From positions 1 through 32,654 of the forward strand of contig JAGVAH010000012.1 of NCBI GenBank assembly GCA_020060385.1: 32,654 bases of DNA. Direction: 5' to 3'. Position numbers and translations under genes: made by a program. A model generated the notes under the pieces. The model ran no database searches, had not been told where the DNA came from, and was given only the letters and a program-made list of their open reading frames with translations. Numbering within the stretch: position 1 is the stretch's first letter; every line of letters begins with the position of its first letter. Shown here one piece after another: positions 16,048 to 30,945 of the stretch. This DNA comes from Syntrophobacterales bacterium (lineage in GTDB: Bacteria > Desulfobacterota > Desulfobaccia > Desulfobaccales > 0-14-0-80-60-11).

Positions 16048-17223
16048 CTAATTGCTGCCGGGGGCCAGGAGGTAGCCGGGAAATTTTTTGGCCAGGTACG
16101 GCTGGAGATCCTGGGAGATGATCTCGGCTGCCTTTTCCGCGCCGCCGTTGGTGAAGTGCATGAAATCATAATAATATATCGAGTTTTTCGGCATCTTCCG
16201 GGCCAGGTCGATGACCAACACCCCCGCTTCCTGCCCCACTTTCCTGGTGGTGTCATTATAGAGCTCCAACACCTGCCAGGCCAACTGGCCGTCCATCTCC
16301 TTGCCGATTTCCACCCGGGCCAAATTGACCCCGGTGGCCGGGTCCTGAAGATCTCCGAAAAGCACCGGTTGGGTGAGCAAAACCGGGATGATGCCGTGGC
16401 TTCTGGTAATTTCCACCAGTTTCTTGAGCCTCTGCCCAAAGGCTCCCAGGTATTTTTCCCGGTATAGTTGTATCTTGGCGGCCCGGGCCCCCGGGGGCAC
16501 CTCCACGGTGGGCACGGTTTTGAGGTCTATTTCTTCATGGACGATCTTAATGGTCACCCTGGGAAAATAAAACCTCTTCAGGTTGAGGATGGCGGCAAAG
16601 ACTTCGCTGTAATTGGCCAGGCCCGTCAGGAAACCGTCCAGAGAACGAAAAGATATCTTCTTGATCATTCTGGTCTCGAATTCCACATTCCTTATCAGGC
16701 CGATGTCATTAATTCCTATTAAAAACAACACCATCTTGGGTTTTATTTTGCAGATGTAGTCTTCCATCAAAATCAGGTGGCCGACGGTGGAATGGCCGGC
16801 CAGCCCGGCATTATTGAGCCACAATTTGCGAAAACTCTTTTGTAATTTGGACCCCAGGGCCAGGGGCCAGGTCTTATCATCGCTCAGTTCCAGGCATTCC
16901 GTGGTGCTGCCGCCGATGGTCAGAATGGTCAGCCACTGGGCAAAATCGGGCGGTGGGTCCTCACCCATGAACCCCAGGGAATTCCGATGCACCTTAATCA
17001 TCTTATCCAGTTTCGCGGTCTGGGGATGGTGGACCACGTCGGTACGGTTTACCAGCAAGACGATCCTATCCCCTTTAATCCTGAACCCCAGGGGATTATA
17101 AAATCTGAGGGCCACTTCCACGACCCCCAGGGCGACCACCAGGCTGAGGAGTATTAAAAAGAGATTCTTACCCAGATTGGCCCAGAAAGGTTTCTTTGGA
17201 GCCGGATCTTTGGCCGTATCCAT
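16048..17223 (-). CDS. Membrane-anchored SGNH/GDSL hydrolase, copy 1
   Basis: 391 residues from ATG 17223. Residues about 19-40 are a single membrane anchor (LFLILLSLVVALGVVEVAL), and the rest is likely periplasmic. SGNH blocks are visible: GGSTTE with Ser106, NNAGLAGHS with the Gly, GINDIG with the Asn, and DFMHF with Asp353 and His356. The preceding HRNSLGFMGE is typical of this anchored subgroup. Such proteins often deacylate or acylate envelope glycans; the substrate is unknown. It lies 117 bp after its close paralogue at 17341-18558, in the same direction, and clearly arose by tandem duplication. Confidence 0.85.
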   Translation of the reverse strand: MDTAKDPAPKKPFWANLGKNLFLILLSLVVALGVVEVALRFYNPLGFRIKGDRIVLLVNRTDVVHHPQTAKLDKMIKVHRNSLGFMGEDPPPDFAQWLTILTIGGSTTECLELSDDKTWPLALGSKLQKSFRKLWLNNAGLAGHSTVGHLILMEDYICKIKPKMVLFLIGINDIGLIRNVEFETRMIKKISFRSLDGFLTGLANYSEVFAAILNLKRFYFPRVTIKIVHEEIDLKTVPTVEVPPGARAAKIQLYREKYLGAFGQRLKKLVEITRSHGIIPVLLTQPVLFGDLQDPATGVNLARVEIGKEMDGQLAWQVLELYNDTTRKVGQEAGVLVIDLARKMPKNSIYYYDFMHFTNGGAEKAAEIISQDLQPYLAKKFPGYLLAPGSN

Positions 17224-17340
17224 GGAGTGTCCTAGCGGTTAGGAAGCGTCAGCTTCAAAGGTGAGAAGGTCCCGCCCCGGTTCCCCTGCTGTTCAAGGTG
17301 CGCCGCCAGTGCCGGCGGTCCTCCCGTCCCGGGTCCAGCA

Positions 17341-18558
17341 CTAGTTGCCTTTACTACTGATGGTGGTCCGGAGGTATTGGGGGAATTTTTGGGCCAGGTA
17401 GGGTTCCAGATGCTGGTAAACGATGTTTGCCACCTTGGCCGCGCCGATATTATCATAATGGATAAAGTCGTAATAATATTTGGAGCTCTTGGGGAGTTCC
17501 CGGGCCAGATCGATCAGGAGAACCTTATCCTCCTGGGCCACCTTCCTGGTGACGTTATTATAGAGCTCCAAAATACGCCAATAAAACCCGCCGTTGATGC
17601 CATCCCCCACCTTTAACTGGGAGAGATCGACTCCGGTCACGTCATCTTTGCCAGGCCCATAAAGGGCCGGCTGGGTCATCAAAACGGGCAGTATGTTGTT
17701 TTCCCTGCAAATATGGACCAACGTTTGCAGCCGCTTTTCATAAGGCCGGGGATACTTGGCCGCATGTTGCCTGTAGAGAGCCTCCTTGGTTGCCTCGGAC
17801 ATCTCGAAGACAGGTTCGGTCTTCAGGTTGATTTCCCGCTGGGGCGGCGCCCAGGTAACCTTTGGGAAATAATACCTTTTTAGATTGAGGATGGCGGCCG
17901 CCACCTCGCTGTGATCCGCCAGGGCTCCCGTAAATCGTTCCAGGGAACGGAAGGACCCCCATTTAAGCCCTGCGTTAATGTTCTTATCCACCCTTTTGAC
18001 GTCGCTTACCCCTATATCGTTGACCCCCACCAGAAAAACCGCGACTTTGGGCCGCAACTGCACCAGAAAATTTTCCATCAGGATAATATGGCCGAAGACG
18101 GAATGACCGGCCAGGCCGGCATTATTGATCCACAATCTCTGGAAATTTCTTTTTAATTTTTCTCCCAGGACATGGACCCAGGTCTTGTCATCAGCCAGCT
18201 CAAAGCAGATGGTCGTGCTCCCCCCCACCGCCACGATACTCAAGCACCGGTCCCAGTCCTGGGGAGGCTCTTCTCCCCGGAATCCCAGGGAATTCCGGTG
18301 CAAATAAACAATAGGGTCCAATTTACTGGCGCGGCTGTGATGAATCACCTCTTTTTTGTTATAGGGCAGGATGATCTGATAGCCCTTGATGCTGAAGCCC
18401 AGGGGGTTATAGATCCTCAGGGCGATCTCCACTAAACCCAGGGCCAGGACCAGGCTCACCAAGACCAGCAGCAGATTCTTGGCGGCATTGCGCAGCCGGG
18501 TCCTTATCCGGCTTTGAGGCTGAACCTCTTGAGGACTGCTGTTTTCCTGATTAACCAC
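17341..18558 (-). CDS. Membrane-anchored SGNH/GDSL hydrolase, copy 2
   Basis: 405 residues from a GTG at 18558. No ATG fits in this frame before the anchor, and no strong ribosome site is seen, so the start is tentative. A membrane anchor spans about 29-50. The SGNH residues are Ser114 (GGSTT), the Gly in NNAGLAGHS, the Asn in GVNDIG, and Asp364 with His367 in DFIHY. It matches copy 1 from end to end, including NPLGF, HRNSLGF, DDKTW and ILNLKRYYFPKVT. The N-terminal tail is longer and polar. Both copies keep their catalytic residues, so both are probably active. Confidence 0.83.
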   Translation of the reverse strand: MVNQENSSPQEVQPQSRIRTRLRNAAKNLLLVLVSLVLALGLVEIALRIYNPLGFSIKGYQIILPYNKKEVIHHSRASKLDPIVYLHRNSLGFRGEEPPQDWDRCLSIVAVGGSTTICFELADDKTWVHVLGEKLKRNFQRLWINNAGLAGHSVFGHIILMENFLVQLRPKVAVFLVGVNDIGVSDVKRVDKNINAGLKWGSFRSLERFTGALADHSEVAAAILNLKRYYFPKVTWAPPQREINLKTEPVFEMSEATKEALYRQHAAKYPRPYEKRLQTLVHICRENNILPVLMTQPALYGPGKDDVTGVDLSQLKVGDGINGGFYWRILELYNNVTRKVAQEDKVLLIDLARELPKSSKYYYDFIHYDNIGAAKVANIVYQHLEPYLAQKFPQYLRTTISSKGN

Positions 18559-20250: not shown

Positions 20251-21600
20251 CTAGTCTTTGTTTACCTCCTGGCAAATGGACTCGTAGGTTATCCGGGCCA
20301 GGGTGTCCAGCTCCTCCAAGGAGATGCACAAAGGAGGCATGAGGACCACCACATCCCCCAGGGGCCTGAGGATGACCCCCCGTTTCCTGGCCTCCAGGAT
20401 TACCCCGTGGCCGGTGCGGCGGGCCGGCGGGAAAGGCTCCCTAGTCTCCCGGTCCTTAACCAGCTCAATACCCACCATCAATCCCCGCTGGCGGATATCC
20501 CCCACTTGGGGGATAGCCTGCATCTCTGCCAGCAGTTGGCTCAGCCTCTCTATCTTGGCAGGCAAGGACTCCATCACTTTCTCTTTCTGGAAGATCTCCA
20601 GACTGGCCAGGGCCGCGGCCGCGGCCAGGGGATTGCCGGTATAGGTATGGCCATGGAAAAAGGCCTTGAATTCCTGGAATTCCCCCAGGAAAGCCTGATA
20701 AATCGCGGCGGTGGCCATGGTGGCCGCCAGGGGCAGATAACCCCCGGTGATGCCCTTGGCCAGGCACAGGAGATCGGGGCTCACCTGCTCCTGGTCGCAG
20801 GCGAACATCCGGCCGGTGCGCCCGAAACCGGTGGCCACCTCGTCGGCGATGAGCAGCACGTCGTAGCGCCGGGTCACTTCCCGGACCCGGGTCAGATACC
20901 CGGGGGGTTGAGGGATCATGCCCGCAGCGCCCTGCATCACCGGCTCCAGAATCAGCGCGGCCAGTTCCTGGTGATGCGCGGCCACCAGCTCTTCCAGCCG
21001 CTCCAGGCATTGCTCCCGTCAGTCCTCGGCCTGGGGGCAGCGGTAACAGTAAGGGGCCGGAGCCTCCAGGGTCTCAAAGAGCAGGGGCCGGAAGATGTCA
21101 TGGAATAAGGTAATGCCCCCCACGGAGACCGCGCCCAGGGTATCGCCGTGATAAGCGCCGCTGAGTTTCAGAAAACGCTGCTTCTGGGGGGAACCCTGCA
21201 ACTGCCAGTATTGAAAGGCCATCTTCAGGGCCACTTCCACCGCGGTGGAGCCGCTGTCGGAGTAAAAAACCTTGGTGAGCCCCGGCGGGGTGACCTCCGC
21301 CAGGGCCCGGGCCAGCACAATGGCCGGAGGATGGGCCAGGCCCAATAAAGTGCTGTGGGCCACCAGCTCCAGTTGCCCCCGCACGGCTTGATCCATTTCC
21401 GGGCGGCCGTGGCCATGGACATTGGTCCAGAGGGAAGAAACCCCGTCCAGATAACGCCGGCCTAGATGGTCAAAGAGATAGACCCCTTCGCCCCGGGTGA
21501 TGAGCAGCAGTTCCTCTTCCCGGAAGCCCTGCATCTGGGTGAAGGGGTGCCAGAGATGCTCCCGGTCCCAGTTCACCAGGGTTTCATAGGAGTAACCCAT
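20251..21600 (-). pseudogene. bioA: Adenosylmethionine-8-amino-7-oxononanoate aminotransferase (bioA) with one in-frame TGA
   Basis: The frame from ATG 21600 (AGGAGG eight bases upstream) is interrupted once, by TGA at codon 194 (21019-21021). It resumes in the same frame with no base lost and reads to 20251, for 449 codons, normal for BioA. Before the TGA: the HPFTQMQGF start, [28 protein letters not shown] and [11 protein letters not shown]. After it: [31 protein letters not shown] and the PLP lysine Lys282 in LAKGITGG. The enzyme converts KAPA to DAPA in biotin synthesis. No bioB, bioD or bioF is nearby. If the TGA is a true stop, only an inactive 193-residue fragment is made. See the separate note on the TGA. 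Confidence 0.85.
21019..21021 (-). other. In-frame TGA at a cysteine position of BioA (nonsense or selenocysteine codon)
   Basis: The TGA falls in ...QAED-[TGA][11 protein letters not shown]. As I recall the family (for example the Bacillus ECRQEALRELAQ segment and a CGxxCL segment in other bacteria), a cysteine stands there. A weak stem-loop, GCC-TGGAGC-GGC, starts 10 nt after the TGA, about where a bacterial SECIS would lie, but it has only 3 bp. One change, TGC or TGT to TGA, also explains it. Confidence 0.5.
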
Positions 21601-28851: not shown

Positions 28852-29508
28852 TCAGCTGCCCGCAATGAAGTTGGAGATAGCCCTGATGATGGGGTCGAAA
28901 TAAGGGCTGAAAATACCATGGTGAGTGACCCGCTCCAGCAGGGCCAGGGCCAGAACCAAAAAGGGGCCGATCTGCACCGTCAGTGCCCTGATCCGCTCAT
29001 CGATCTGGGGTATCAATTCACAGACCAGGTATCCCATGGCCATGGGAGGCACTGGGATCAAGTTATATATGGCGGTGGTAACATTGACCCCAATGACCAT
29101 CAAAAAGACGCGGGGGTCATATTGAAAGATATTAAAAAGCATGACGATGCTGCCAAAGATGCTGGCCATCAGCAGATTCGCCACTGGTCCCGCGACCCGG
29201 CTCAATACCATGTAGAGCCGGGGATACTCGAATTTACCGGCATCGATATCAAAGTTGCGGCCCCAGCCGAAGCCGGCCACCAAGTAGCAGATCGACCCCA
29301 GAATATCCAGGTGCAGGAAGGCGTTAAAATGGAGTCGATCCCTGGCCCCGGGACGCCGGTCCCCCAGAAAATTGGACATGAAGGCCTGGGCCTCGGCATT
29401 AATGGTGATGGCCACCAGCACCGAAACACAGAAGGATACCACCGCATCAACGGCGAAGGTGCCGGGCTCGAGAATAAAAGGCACCGGCCAAGAGGTTGCC
29501 ATGGACAT
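28852..29508 (-). CDS. M50 (site-2-protease-like) membrane protein with all catalytic residues lost
   Basis: 218 residues from ATG 29508, supported by GGGGGTAAGG about eight bases upstream. About five to six membrane segments. The backbone fits M50 proteins: GDRRPGARDRLHFNAFLHLDILGSI (in part), FGWGRNFDID, LSRVAGPVANLLMA and NLIPVPPMAMG. But the metal-binding HExxH is replaced by NAEAQ (Asn37-Ala38-Glu39-Ala40-Gln41), and the Asp of NxxPxPPxDG by Ala157. No zinc site remains, so it cannot cleave peptides in the normal way. It may be a pseudoprotease acting as a scaffold or membrane chaperone. It lies downstream of the OFA-type carrier on the same strand, after a 147-bp gap containing a hairpin. 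Confidence 0.75.
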   Translation of the reverse strand: MSMATSWPVPFILEPGTFAVDAVVSFCVSVLVAITINAEAQAFMSNFLGDRRPGARDRLHFNAFLHLDILGSICYLVAGFGWGRNFDIDAGKFEYPRLYMVLSRVAGPVANLLMASIFGSIVMLFNIFQYDPRVFLMVIGVNVTTAIYNLIPVPPMAMGYLVCELIPQIDERIRALTVQIGPFLVLALALLERVTHHGIFSPYFDPIIRAISNFIAGS

Positions 29509-29540
29509 CAGTATTACCTTACCCCCTTTCCTCAACAATA

Positions 29541-29572
29541 GAGAAGGCAGGGTTAGCGTACCCTGCCTTCTC
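29541..29572 (-). terminator. Hairpin after the MFS carrier gene
   Basis: GAGAAGGCAGGGT (29541-29553) and ACCCTGCCTTCTC (29560-29572) form a perfect 13-bp stem with a 6-nt loop. On the minus strand the sequence after it is TATTGTT, only moderately T-rich. It probably terminates or attenuates the MFS transcript. Confidence 0.65.
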
Positions 29573-29655
29573 GGGATCACTCCGGTTTTACCTGTTTCCC
29601 ATTTCAGCGCTTCAACGCTCAGGTCGCAGGCAAAACCGGGTTGCAGAATTGAGAT

Positions 29656-30945
29656 TTACTCGGTCGCATGCATGGGCCGTTTGGTCACCCGGGAGATAAC
29701 CACCGCCACGATCAGCACGATGGCCGAGAGGATGAAGGCCCAGGTCAGGGTGCCGGTGATGTCTCTGATGGTGCCCGCCAGACGGGTCATGAAGAAGCCG
29801 GCGCCCCACCCGAGGAACACCAGGCCGTAGTTCATGCCCAGGTTCTTGGGGCCGAAGAAGTCGGCAGTATAAGCGGGCATCAGAGCCAGACCGCCGCCGT
29901 ACTGCCAGTAGGCGATACCCACGGCCAGGAACAGGATGACCACGTTGCCGCCGGCGATGATCATTGGCAGCACGAACAGACAGAGGGCTGATACCAGACA
30001 GTTGATGGTGTAGGCGTTATCCCGGCCGATCTTATCCGAATACATACCGGTTCCCACCCGGCCCAGGGCGTTCACCAAACCGCCCCAGGAAGCCAAGATC
30101 CAGGCGTTGGCCACCAGGAAGGGGGTGCCTTTGGCCGCGGTGGCTAAAATCGGTGCGGCATTGGCGATAACCAGCAGACCCGACTGGGTGGTGCCCGCGA
30201 ACATCAGGACCAGGGCGAAGAACTGCCAGGTCTTGACGATTTCCGACGGCGACCAGTCCACAATGGTGCCCACCGCCTTGGCCGGGGCCGCCCCTGCTTT
30301 CACCGGGGCGGGAGGCGCCACATAGCCCGGGGGCGCCTTGGCCAGCTGGGAGCCGGCGATGATGACCACGGCTGCGAAGAAGATGCCCAGGAAGATCCAG
30401 CTGTAAGTGACGCCGCCGGTGGCGATGAGATAAGCGGCCAGGGGCGAAATGTAGAGAGCCGCGCCGCCGTAGCCGCCCACCACCAGACCGGCCACCAGAC
30501 CCCGCTTATGGGGGCCGAACCAGGTAAGAGCCGCGGGCGTGGGCGCGGCGTAACCGATGCCCATGCCGATGCCGCCCATCACGCCGAAGCCGAATACCAG
30601 GCCGCCGTAGCTTTTCATCAAACCGGCGATGATGCAGCCCAAAGCCAGGAAGAGGCCGCCGGTGATGGCGCCCACCTTGGGCCCCAACCTATCCTGGATC
30701 CGGCCGCCGGGAATCATTAATAAGGCAAAGATAATGACGCACAAGGAAAATGGTGTGGCCGCCTGGGCGTTGGTGATATAAGTCCAACCCGCCGCCGGGC
30801 CTTCGGTAATGAGCTGCCCGGCTTTTTTGACGTCAATCAGGGCCTTGGTCCAAACGCTCCAGGCATACAGGATTCCCAAACAGAGGTTAACAGCCGTGCC
30901 CGAAAATACAACTACCCAAGCTTTCCCTGGAACTTTGTCTGCCAT
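29656..30945 (-). CDS. OFA-family (oxalate/formate antiporter-type) MFS transporter
   Basis: 429 residues from ATG 30945; AGGAGGAG precedes it. About twelve hydrophobic helices are visible with a central polar, Ala/Pro-rich loop (KAPPGYVAPPAPVKAGAAPAKA). Family traits: NLCLGILYAWSVW at the start, GGRIQDRLGPK after helix 2-3, GIGMGIGYAAPTPAALTWFGPHKRGLVAGLVVGGYG, and GLVNALGRVGTGMYSDKIGRDN in the second half. OFA members exchange small carboxylates such as oxalate/formate or take up monocarboxylates; the substrate is not determined. A sigma-54-type promoter lies about 110 bp upstream (31068-31084). Confidence 0.88.
   Translation of the reverse strand: MADKVPGKAWVVVFSGTAVNLCLGILYAWSVWTKALIDVKKAGQLITEGPAAGWTYITNAQAATPFSLCVIIFALLMIPGGRIQDRLGPKVGAITGGLFLALGCIIAGLMKSYGGLVFGFGVMGGIGMGIGYAAPTPAALTWFGPHKRGLVAGLVVGGYGGAALYISPLAAYLIATGGVTYSWIFLGIFFAAVVIIAGSQLAKAPPGYVAPPAPVKAGAAPAKAVGTIVDWSPSEIVKTWQFFALVLMFAGTTQSGLLVIANAAPILATAAKGTPFLVANAWILASWGGLVNALGRVGTGMYSDKIGRDNAYTINCLVSALCLFVLPMIIAGGNVVILFLAVGIAYWQYGGGLALMPAYTADFFGPKNLGMNYGLVFLGWGAGFFMTRLAGTIRDITGTLTWAFILSAIVLIVAVVISRVTKRPMHATE

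Follow-up and report, generated by a model that had tools for sequence, protein, structure and literature searches.

pM50, a 218-residue membrane protein of sulfate-reducing Thermodesulfobacteriota, is a homologue of the M50B (site-2) proteases in which all three metal ligands and the catalytic glutamate have been lost. According to its phylogeny the family arose once; it evolves under purifying selection, and its genes are linked to one subclade of MCT-type carriers and to acetyl-CoA synthetase (ACS). From this gene order, we infer a partnership with the carrier. More specifically, we give roughly even chances to the reading that pM50 is a catalytically dead protein of the site-2 protease (S2P) fold acting as the non-proteolytic partner of an MCT-type carrier, itself most likely an importer of acetate for ACS. 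The features on which the analysis rests are collected in Table 1; the window denotes the entire stretch of 32,654 bases analysed, contig C8 of a 4.15 Mb genome.

Table 1. Features of the pM50 locus and of related loci (window positions unless a locus is named)
Feature	Position	Strand	Basis
pM50 CDS (M50-fold pseudoprotease, 218 aa + stop)	28852..29508	minus	ORF, profile, tree, fold
NAEAQ (pM50 residues 37-41), at the HExxH position	29386..29400	minus	A38/E39/Q41 invariant in 48 homologues
M50B scaffold segment GDRRPGARDRLHFNAFLHLDILG kept (residues 49-71)	29296..29364	minus	alignment
NLIPVPP loop kept (residues 149-155)	29044..29064	minus	alignment
PMAMG (residues 155-159), at the P-L-D-G position	29032..29046	minus	metal-ligand Asp replaced by Ala157
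Intercistronic hairpin in the carrier-pM50 gap, 13-pair stem GAGAAGGCAGGGT / ACCCTGCCTTCTC	29541..29572	minus	conserved, covarying
OFA/MCT-type MFS carrier (429 aa), immediately upstream of pM50	29656..30945	minus	Pfam MFS_1, NCBIfam NF049980
HAEAQ-type pM50 directly behind etfB-etfA-ETF:QO	L096:2452-6636, L104:2201-5747, L105:1739-6651, L108, L109		

Fold, active site and descent of pM50

The pM50 reading frame begins with an ATG at 29508 and its stop codon ends at 28852. An alternative GTG start at 29580 would yield 242 residues; homologues favour an ATG at 29508/29502. In a single-sequence Pfam search, the window protein matched PF02163 below the gathering score (E = 0.033; score 13.9 bits, cut-off 27.2), and 33 of 48 family members matched this profile at E-values up to 1, the best being 1.7e-7. 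When a pM50 profile was aligned to 16 HExxH M50B proteins using hhalign, the match extended over 200 columns with a probability of 99.95 and an E-value of 4e-38. The AlphaFold2 model (mean pLDDT 87.1, pTM 0.85) had the S2P transmembrane fold. According to Foldseek, the first four PDB matches of this model were site-2 proteases, the best being MjS2P (3b4r, probability 1.00), with SpoIVFB at 0.98 (8vjl) and 0.87; the E-values were modest, 0.003–0.09 (best 3.3e-3), and the TM-scores were 0.43–0.48. Overall, pM50 is an M50B homologue by fold and descent, firmly so by profile comparison, and a placement outside M50 was rejected by both the profile comparison and the fold search.

The first-pass annotation had described a retained site-2-protease scaffold, including a GDPxAR-like segment and an NLxPxPP loop, in which NAEAQ stands for HExxH and alanine for the DG aspartate while the frame stays intact. 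The alignment bore this out. Like MjS2P, SpoIVFB and other M50B proteases, pM50 possesses the GD, R and H-D-G residues, GFGW, GPxxN (107–111), N142 and NLxPxPP. By contrast, HExxH and the aspartate of PLDG were each present in 33 of 33 HExxH relatives but are NAEAQ and Ala157, respectively, in pM50. The same losses occurred in all 48 pM50 members, which carried xAE[AGS]Q in place of the zinc-binding and catalytic motif and A, P or T in place of the third metal ligand. More specifically, the motif was NAEAQ in 20 members, SAEGQ in eight, NAEGQ in seven, HAEAQ in six and SAESQ in four, with TAEAQ, QAEAQ and SAEAQ occurring once each. An alternative alignment, shifted so as to match glutamate to glutamate, was rejected: the interval up to GD needs no gap when NAEAQ is set against HExxH. 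Judged by these two catalytic motifs, pM50 is not an M50 peptidase. Its former active site is conserved in a new form rather than decaying, since A38, E39 and Q41 are invariant across the family. S120, F135 and V141 are likewise invariant in the 48 members and are variable in the HExxH relatives.

Within the order Desulfobaccales, pM50 was found in 26 of the 29 genomes searched, one copy being truncated by a contig end; a 27th genome contained only the C-terminal end of the gene, at a contig edge. In a scan of a genome collection, pM50 also occurred in records titled Desulfobulbaceae, Desulfopila, Desulforhopalus, Desulfoprunum benzoelyticum, Desulfococcus, Desulfobacteraceae and Desulfosoma. 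A scan of 395 genomes of the phylum yielded 25 matches at E ≤ 1e-35, 24 of which were pM50 family members. The weakest (G096, E = 9e-36) was considered as an intermediate and rejected, being an ordinary HEYAH protease, and the best matches read in carrier-bearing genomes that lack pM50 were rejected on the same grounds, each having HExxH. In this sample, therefore, the pM50 and HExxH sequences do not grade into each other. A plasmid search with pM50 returned matches of ~30% identity only, and most of those listed were annotated as site-2 proteases.

In a tree built without the active-site motif columns, a single branch with support of 100/100 separated the 48 pM50 members from 33 HExxH proteins. 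The pM50 clade spans several orders of the Thermodesulfobacteriota, and its single origin is established at the level of the sequence phylogeny. For close pM50 pairs (dS below 0.7), dN/dS was 0.12–0.43. These data indicate a selected, lineage-wide loss of the catalytic residues, and the purifying selection on a catalytically dead gene supports the earlier proposal of selection for a non-proteolytic role. The first-pass annotation had also asked whether homologues with the same losses form a clade, which they do, and had allowed that a close homologue with an intact HExxH would point to a local mutation; we looked for such a homologue and found none. A local mutation or pseudogene was accordingly rejected, the losses being common to 48 open-frame homologues and the close pairs being under purifying selection. 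The genome from which the window derives also encodes a canonical HExxH M50B paralogue (contig C89), one of the 33 HExxH proteins in the tree, so the protease role is filled separately.

The adjoining carrier and the genes around pM50

The adjoining carrier scored 351.8 bits against NF049980, a family model named for the L-lactate transporter SfMCT (cut-off 320). Its scores against oxalate/formate models did not reach the cut-offs (for TIGR00890, oxalate/formate antiport, 176 against 374.85). In a tree of carriers, all but one of those linked to pM50 fell under a branch of 47 rows with an SH-aLRT of 99, the remaining one (L086) lying just outside it. None of the OFA carriers beyond that subclade was linked to pM50 in this sample.

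In the Desulfobaccales, every contig that reaches far enough has the carrier gene immediately upstream of pM50 and co-directional with it, and three contigs that end early still include the C-terminal part of the carrier gene. The same order occurs in a Syntrophobacteraceae-type set (f71) that includes the record titled Desulfosoma. In Desulfobulbales-type loci and in G184, taken as Desulfococcus multivorans, an acetate–CoA ligase separates the two genes in the order carrier–ligase–pM50; the ligase was identified as ACS by a score above the TIGR02188 cut-off. An OFA-carrier neighbour is thus kept in these three sets, with ACS intervening in the last, and not in the HAEAQ lineage. In the latter (G312 and close kin), pM50 lies behind etfB, etfA and the gene for ETF:quinone oxidoreductase (ETF:QO), at one locus (L104) only three bases past the stop codon of the upstream gene, and in G312 the carrier and the ligase are encoded elsewhere. 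The partnership of pM50 with the carrier is not universal, because this lineage follows etfBA-ETF:QO and has its carrier–ACS pair at another site. The association holds at most pM50 loci, but some carriers of the same subclade have no linked pM50: that of G312, a second copy in G011, and the carriers of families f10 and f15, where pM50 is missing. In family f10, the ligase adjoins the carrier and pM50 is absent. One further genome (G014, 98% complete) lacks both the carrier and pM50.

The genome taken as Desulfobacca acetoxidans (G024) has a single carrier of this type, and it adjoins pM50. D. acetoxidans grows on acetate; reportedly, it uses none of lactate, pyruvate, formate and fumarate (PMC3156406). 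Because of this physiology, the single carrier beside pM50 and the linkage to ACS, acetate is the likely cargo of the carrier.

The gap between the carrier and pM50 in the window contains a terminator-like hairpin with a weak T tail; in some relatives the tail is a long T run. The hairpin was present in 22 of 22 aligned intergenic regions, chosen from loci with room for it, and 8 of its 12 consensus pairs had changed on both sides with pairing kept. Two loci (L049 and L082) have short apparent gaps without the hairpin. For L049, whose genome is G004, the short gap is explained by a start placed too far upstream, since a hairpin-pattern match there ends ~40 bases before the match to pM50. The genome of the window contains the pattern once, and most of the relatives searched contain it at one to three sites. 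In Desulfobulbales-type loci, a hairpin lies between the ligase gene and pM50, just ahead of pM50 and often with a long T run. Nearly all carrier-linked loci have a terminator-like hairpin in front of pM50. The intergenic comparison revealed no comparable hairpin ahead of pM50 in the ETF lineage, and an Rfam search of the hairpin region returned nothing above the gathering score. The hairpin is a putative terminator or attenuator. A terminator-like element between the genes argues against equimolar co-expression and suggests that the cell produces pM50 in amounts that differ from those of the carrier and are probably smaller.

The carrier and pM50 occupy one reading frame in the window (28855-30945, minus strand), interrupted by a single TAA; the 49 intervening codons are otherwise open. 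The shared frame is probably due to chance, as relatives are mostly out of frame. An AlphaFold model of the two read as a single chain had a pTM of 0.62, with most of the pM50 half at a pLDDT below 50, and was counted neither way.

Two other arrangements were observed in the window, both on the minus strand. A class-III aminotransferase-like (bioA-like) gene at 20251-21600 is split into ORFs at 20251-20985 and 21019-21600; it is intact in relatives, where it encodes 447–449 residues (e.g., L041:17403-18746). The split reflects a frameshift, a pseudogene or an assembly error. At 16048-18558, an apparent tandem duplication consists of two adjacent, similar ORFs of 391 and 405 residues, to which L046 has related ORFs.

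Possible functions of pM50

Were pM50 a partner of the carrier, it would regulate the assembly, stability or activity (gating) of a monocarboxylate carrier of the MCT type, and the carrier would import acetate for acetyl-CoA synthetase. The two proteins would touch, and the helix of the former active site, with its invariant E39 and Q41, would form part of the contact or regulatory surface. This model accounts for most of the observations; what it chiefly leaves unexplained is the ETF:QO lineage, together with carriers that occur without pM50. The ETF:QO lineage may have changed its partner, or the role of pM50 may be broader.

The broader role can be stated as an explanation in its own right: pM50 would serve membrane energy metabolism generally, for example by anchoring or regulating ETF:QO or another quinone-linked complex, and its adjacency to the carrier would reflect co-regulation of genes for the oxidation of acetate and fatty acids rather than contact. 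It draws on the lineage in which pM50 lies 3 to ~138 bases behind ETF:QO in the row etfB-etfA-ETFQO-pM50, with no terminator hairpin between them and with the carrier and ACS elsewhere in the genome. That arrangement is, however, limited to one pM50 subclade, all others following the carrier or the carrier–ACS pair, and no ETF genes occurred beside pM50 in the carrier or carrier–ACS loci examined. We consider this explanation unlikely. It is quite improbable that pM50 regulates proteolysis as a decoy or adaptor, capturing the genuine M50B protease of the same cell or the substrates of that protease. Inactive rhomboids (iRhoms) provide a precedent, being described in PMC3149277 as regulating a pathway of their active relatives, and pM50-bearing genomes of the order generally also hold a canonical HExxH M50B paralogue. 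Nevertheless, genomes that lack pM50 have that paralogue too, and gene order links pM50 to the carrier and ACS, not to a protease.

The remaining explanations assign pM50 a catalytic function. That it has become another enzyme, with E39 and Q41 forming a new catalytic or ligand site together with H66, N111 and N142 (another hydrolase, a metal site or a carboxylate/proton site), is consistent with the six residues invariant in the 48 sequences, the former active-site positions not drifting. Yet H66, N111 and N142 are scaffold residues common to HExxH proteases and, in the profile searches, no family profile indicated another enzyme; we regard this possibility as highly doubtful. It is scarcely credible that pM50 is still a protease with a different catalytic arrangement. 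Although pM50 retains the fold and several features of the scaffold, the first histidine survives in the HAEAQ branch only and the second is always glutamine, the catalytic glutamate is always alanine, the third-ligand aspartate is never present, and the retained glutamate (E39) is one helix position away.

Returning to the partnership with the carrier, its most developed form is tentative, and we hold it to be somewhat less probable than not: a bacterial S2P fold would have been converted once, becoming a regulator or accessory subunit dedicated to an MCT-like importer of acetate, and later re-partnered with ETF:QO in one lineage, making pM50 the bacterial counterpart, in function and not by ancestry, of basigin for the human MCTs. 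A basigin-like charge pairing through E39 is speculation only, as the glutamate of basigin is not essential (PMC2409183).

Relation to known systems

Non-proteolytic relatives of intramembrane proteases are known mainly from eukaryotes, such as iRhoms and EGY3; pM50 is a bacterial, clade-wide case among the site-2 proteases. If the proposed role is correct, the S2P scaffold lends itself to reuse in a partner protein, and pM50 is a testable candidate helper of bacterial MCT-type carriers. Its metabolic context is specific, its hosts being competitors for acetate in anoxic sludge and sediment. The findings also call for caution in the automatic annotation of pM50-like genes as site-2 proteases. 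The word pseudoprotease is absent from a review of bacterial site-2 proteases (PMC10202637), and we found no earlier description of this carrier–pM50 gene pair among the open-access papers searched.

pM50 differs from the M50B proteases in lacking HExxH and the PLDG aspartate, in forming a separate clade and in its carrier/ACS or ETF:QO neighbourhood. Its nearest described parallel, by analogy, is EGY3, an S2P pseudoprotease of Arabidopsis reported to stabilise other chloroplast proteins (PMC10978774). EGY3 is likewise an M50-type protein without the zinc-binding motif but, unlike pM50, is a plant chloroplast protein, and the two are likened by description. The iRhoms also reuse a membrane protease fold without catalysis; theirs is an unrelated serine-protease fold, and they act in eukaryotic signalling and trafficking.

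On the carrier side, the adjoining protein passes the family cut-off of SfMCT, an SLC16 homologue of Syntrophobacter fumaroxidans characterised in E. coli; the excerpted text of that report mentions no such bacterial partner (PMC6573034). According to the same text, human MCT1–4 associate with basigin or embigin as a membrane ancillary partner, and a basigin-like role for pM50 would be an analogy only. Unlike pM50, basigin spans the membrane once, is of the immunoglobulin type and is unrelated to M50. In E. coli, the acs-yjcH-actP operon groups the genes for acetyl-CoA synthetase, a small membrane protein and a permease for acetate. The pM50 locus resembles this arrangement with a permease of a different family and a different small protein.
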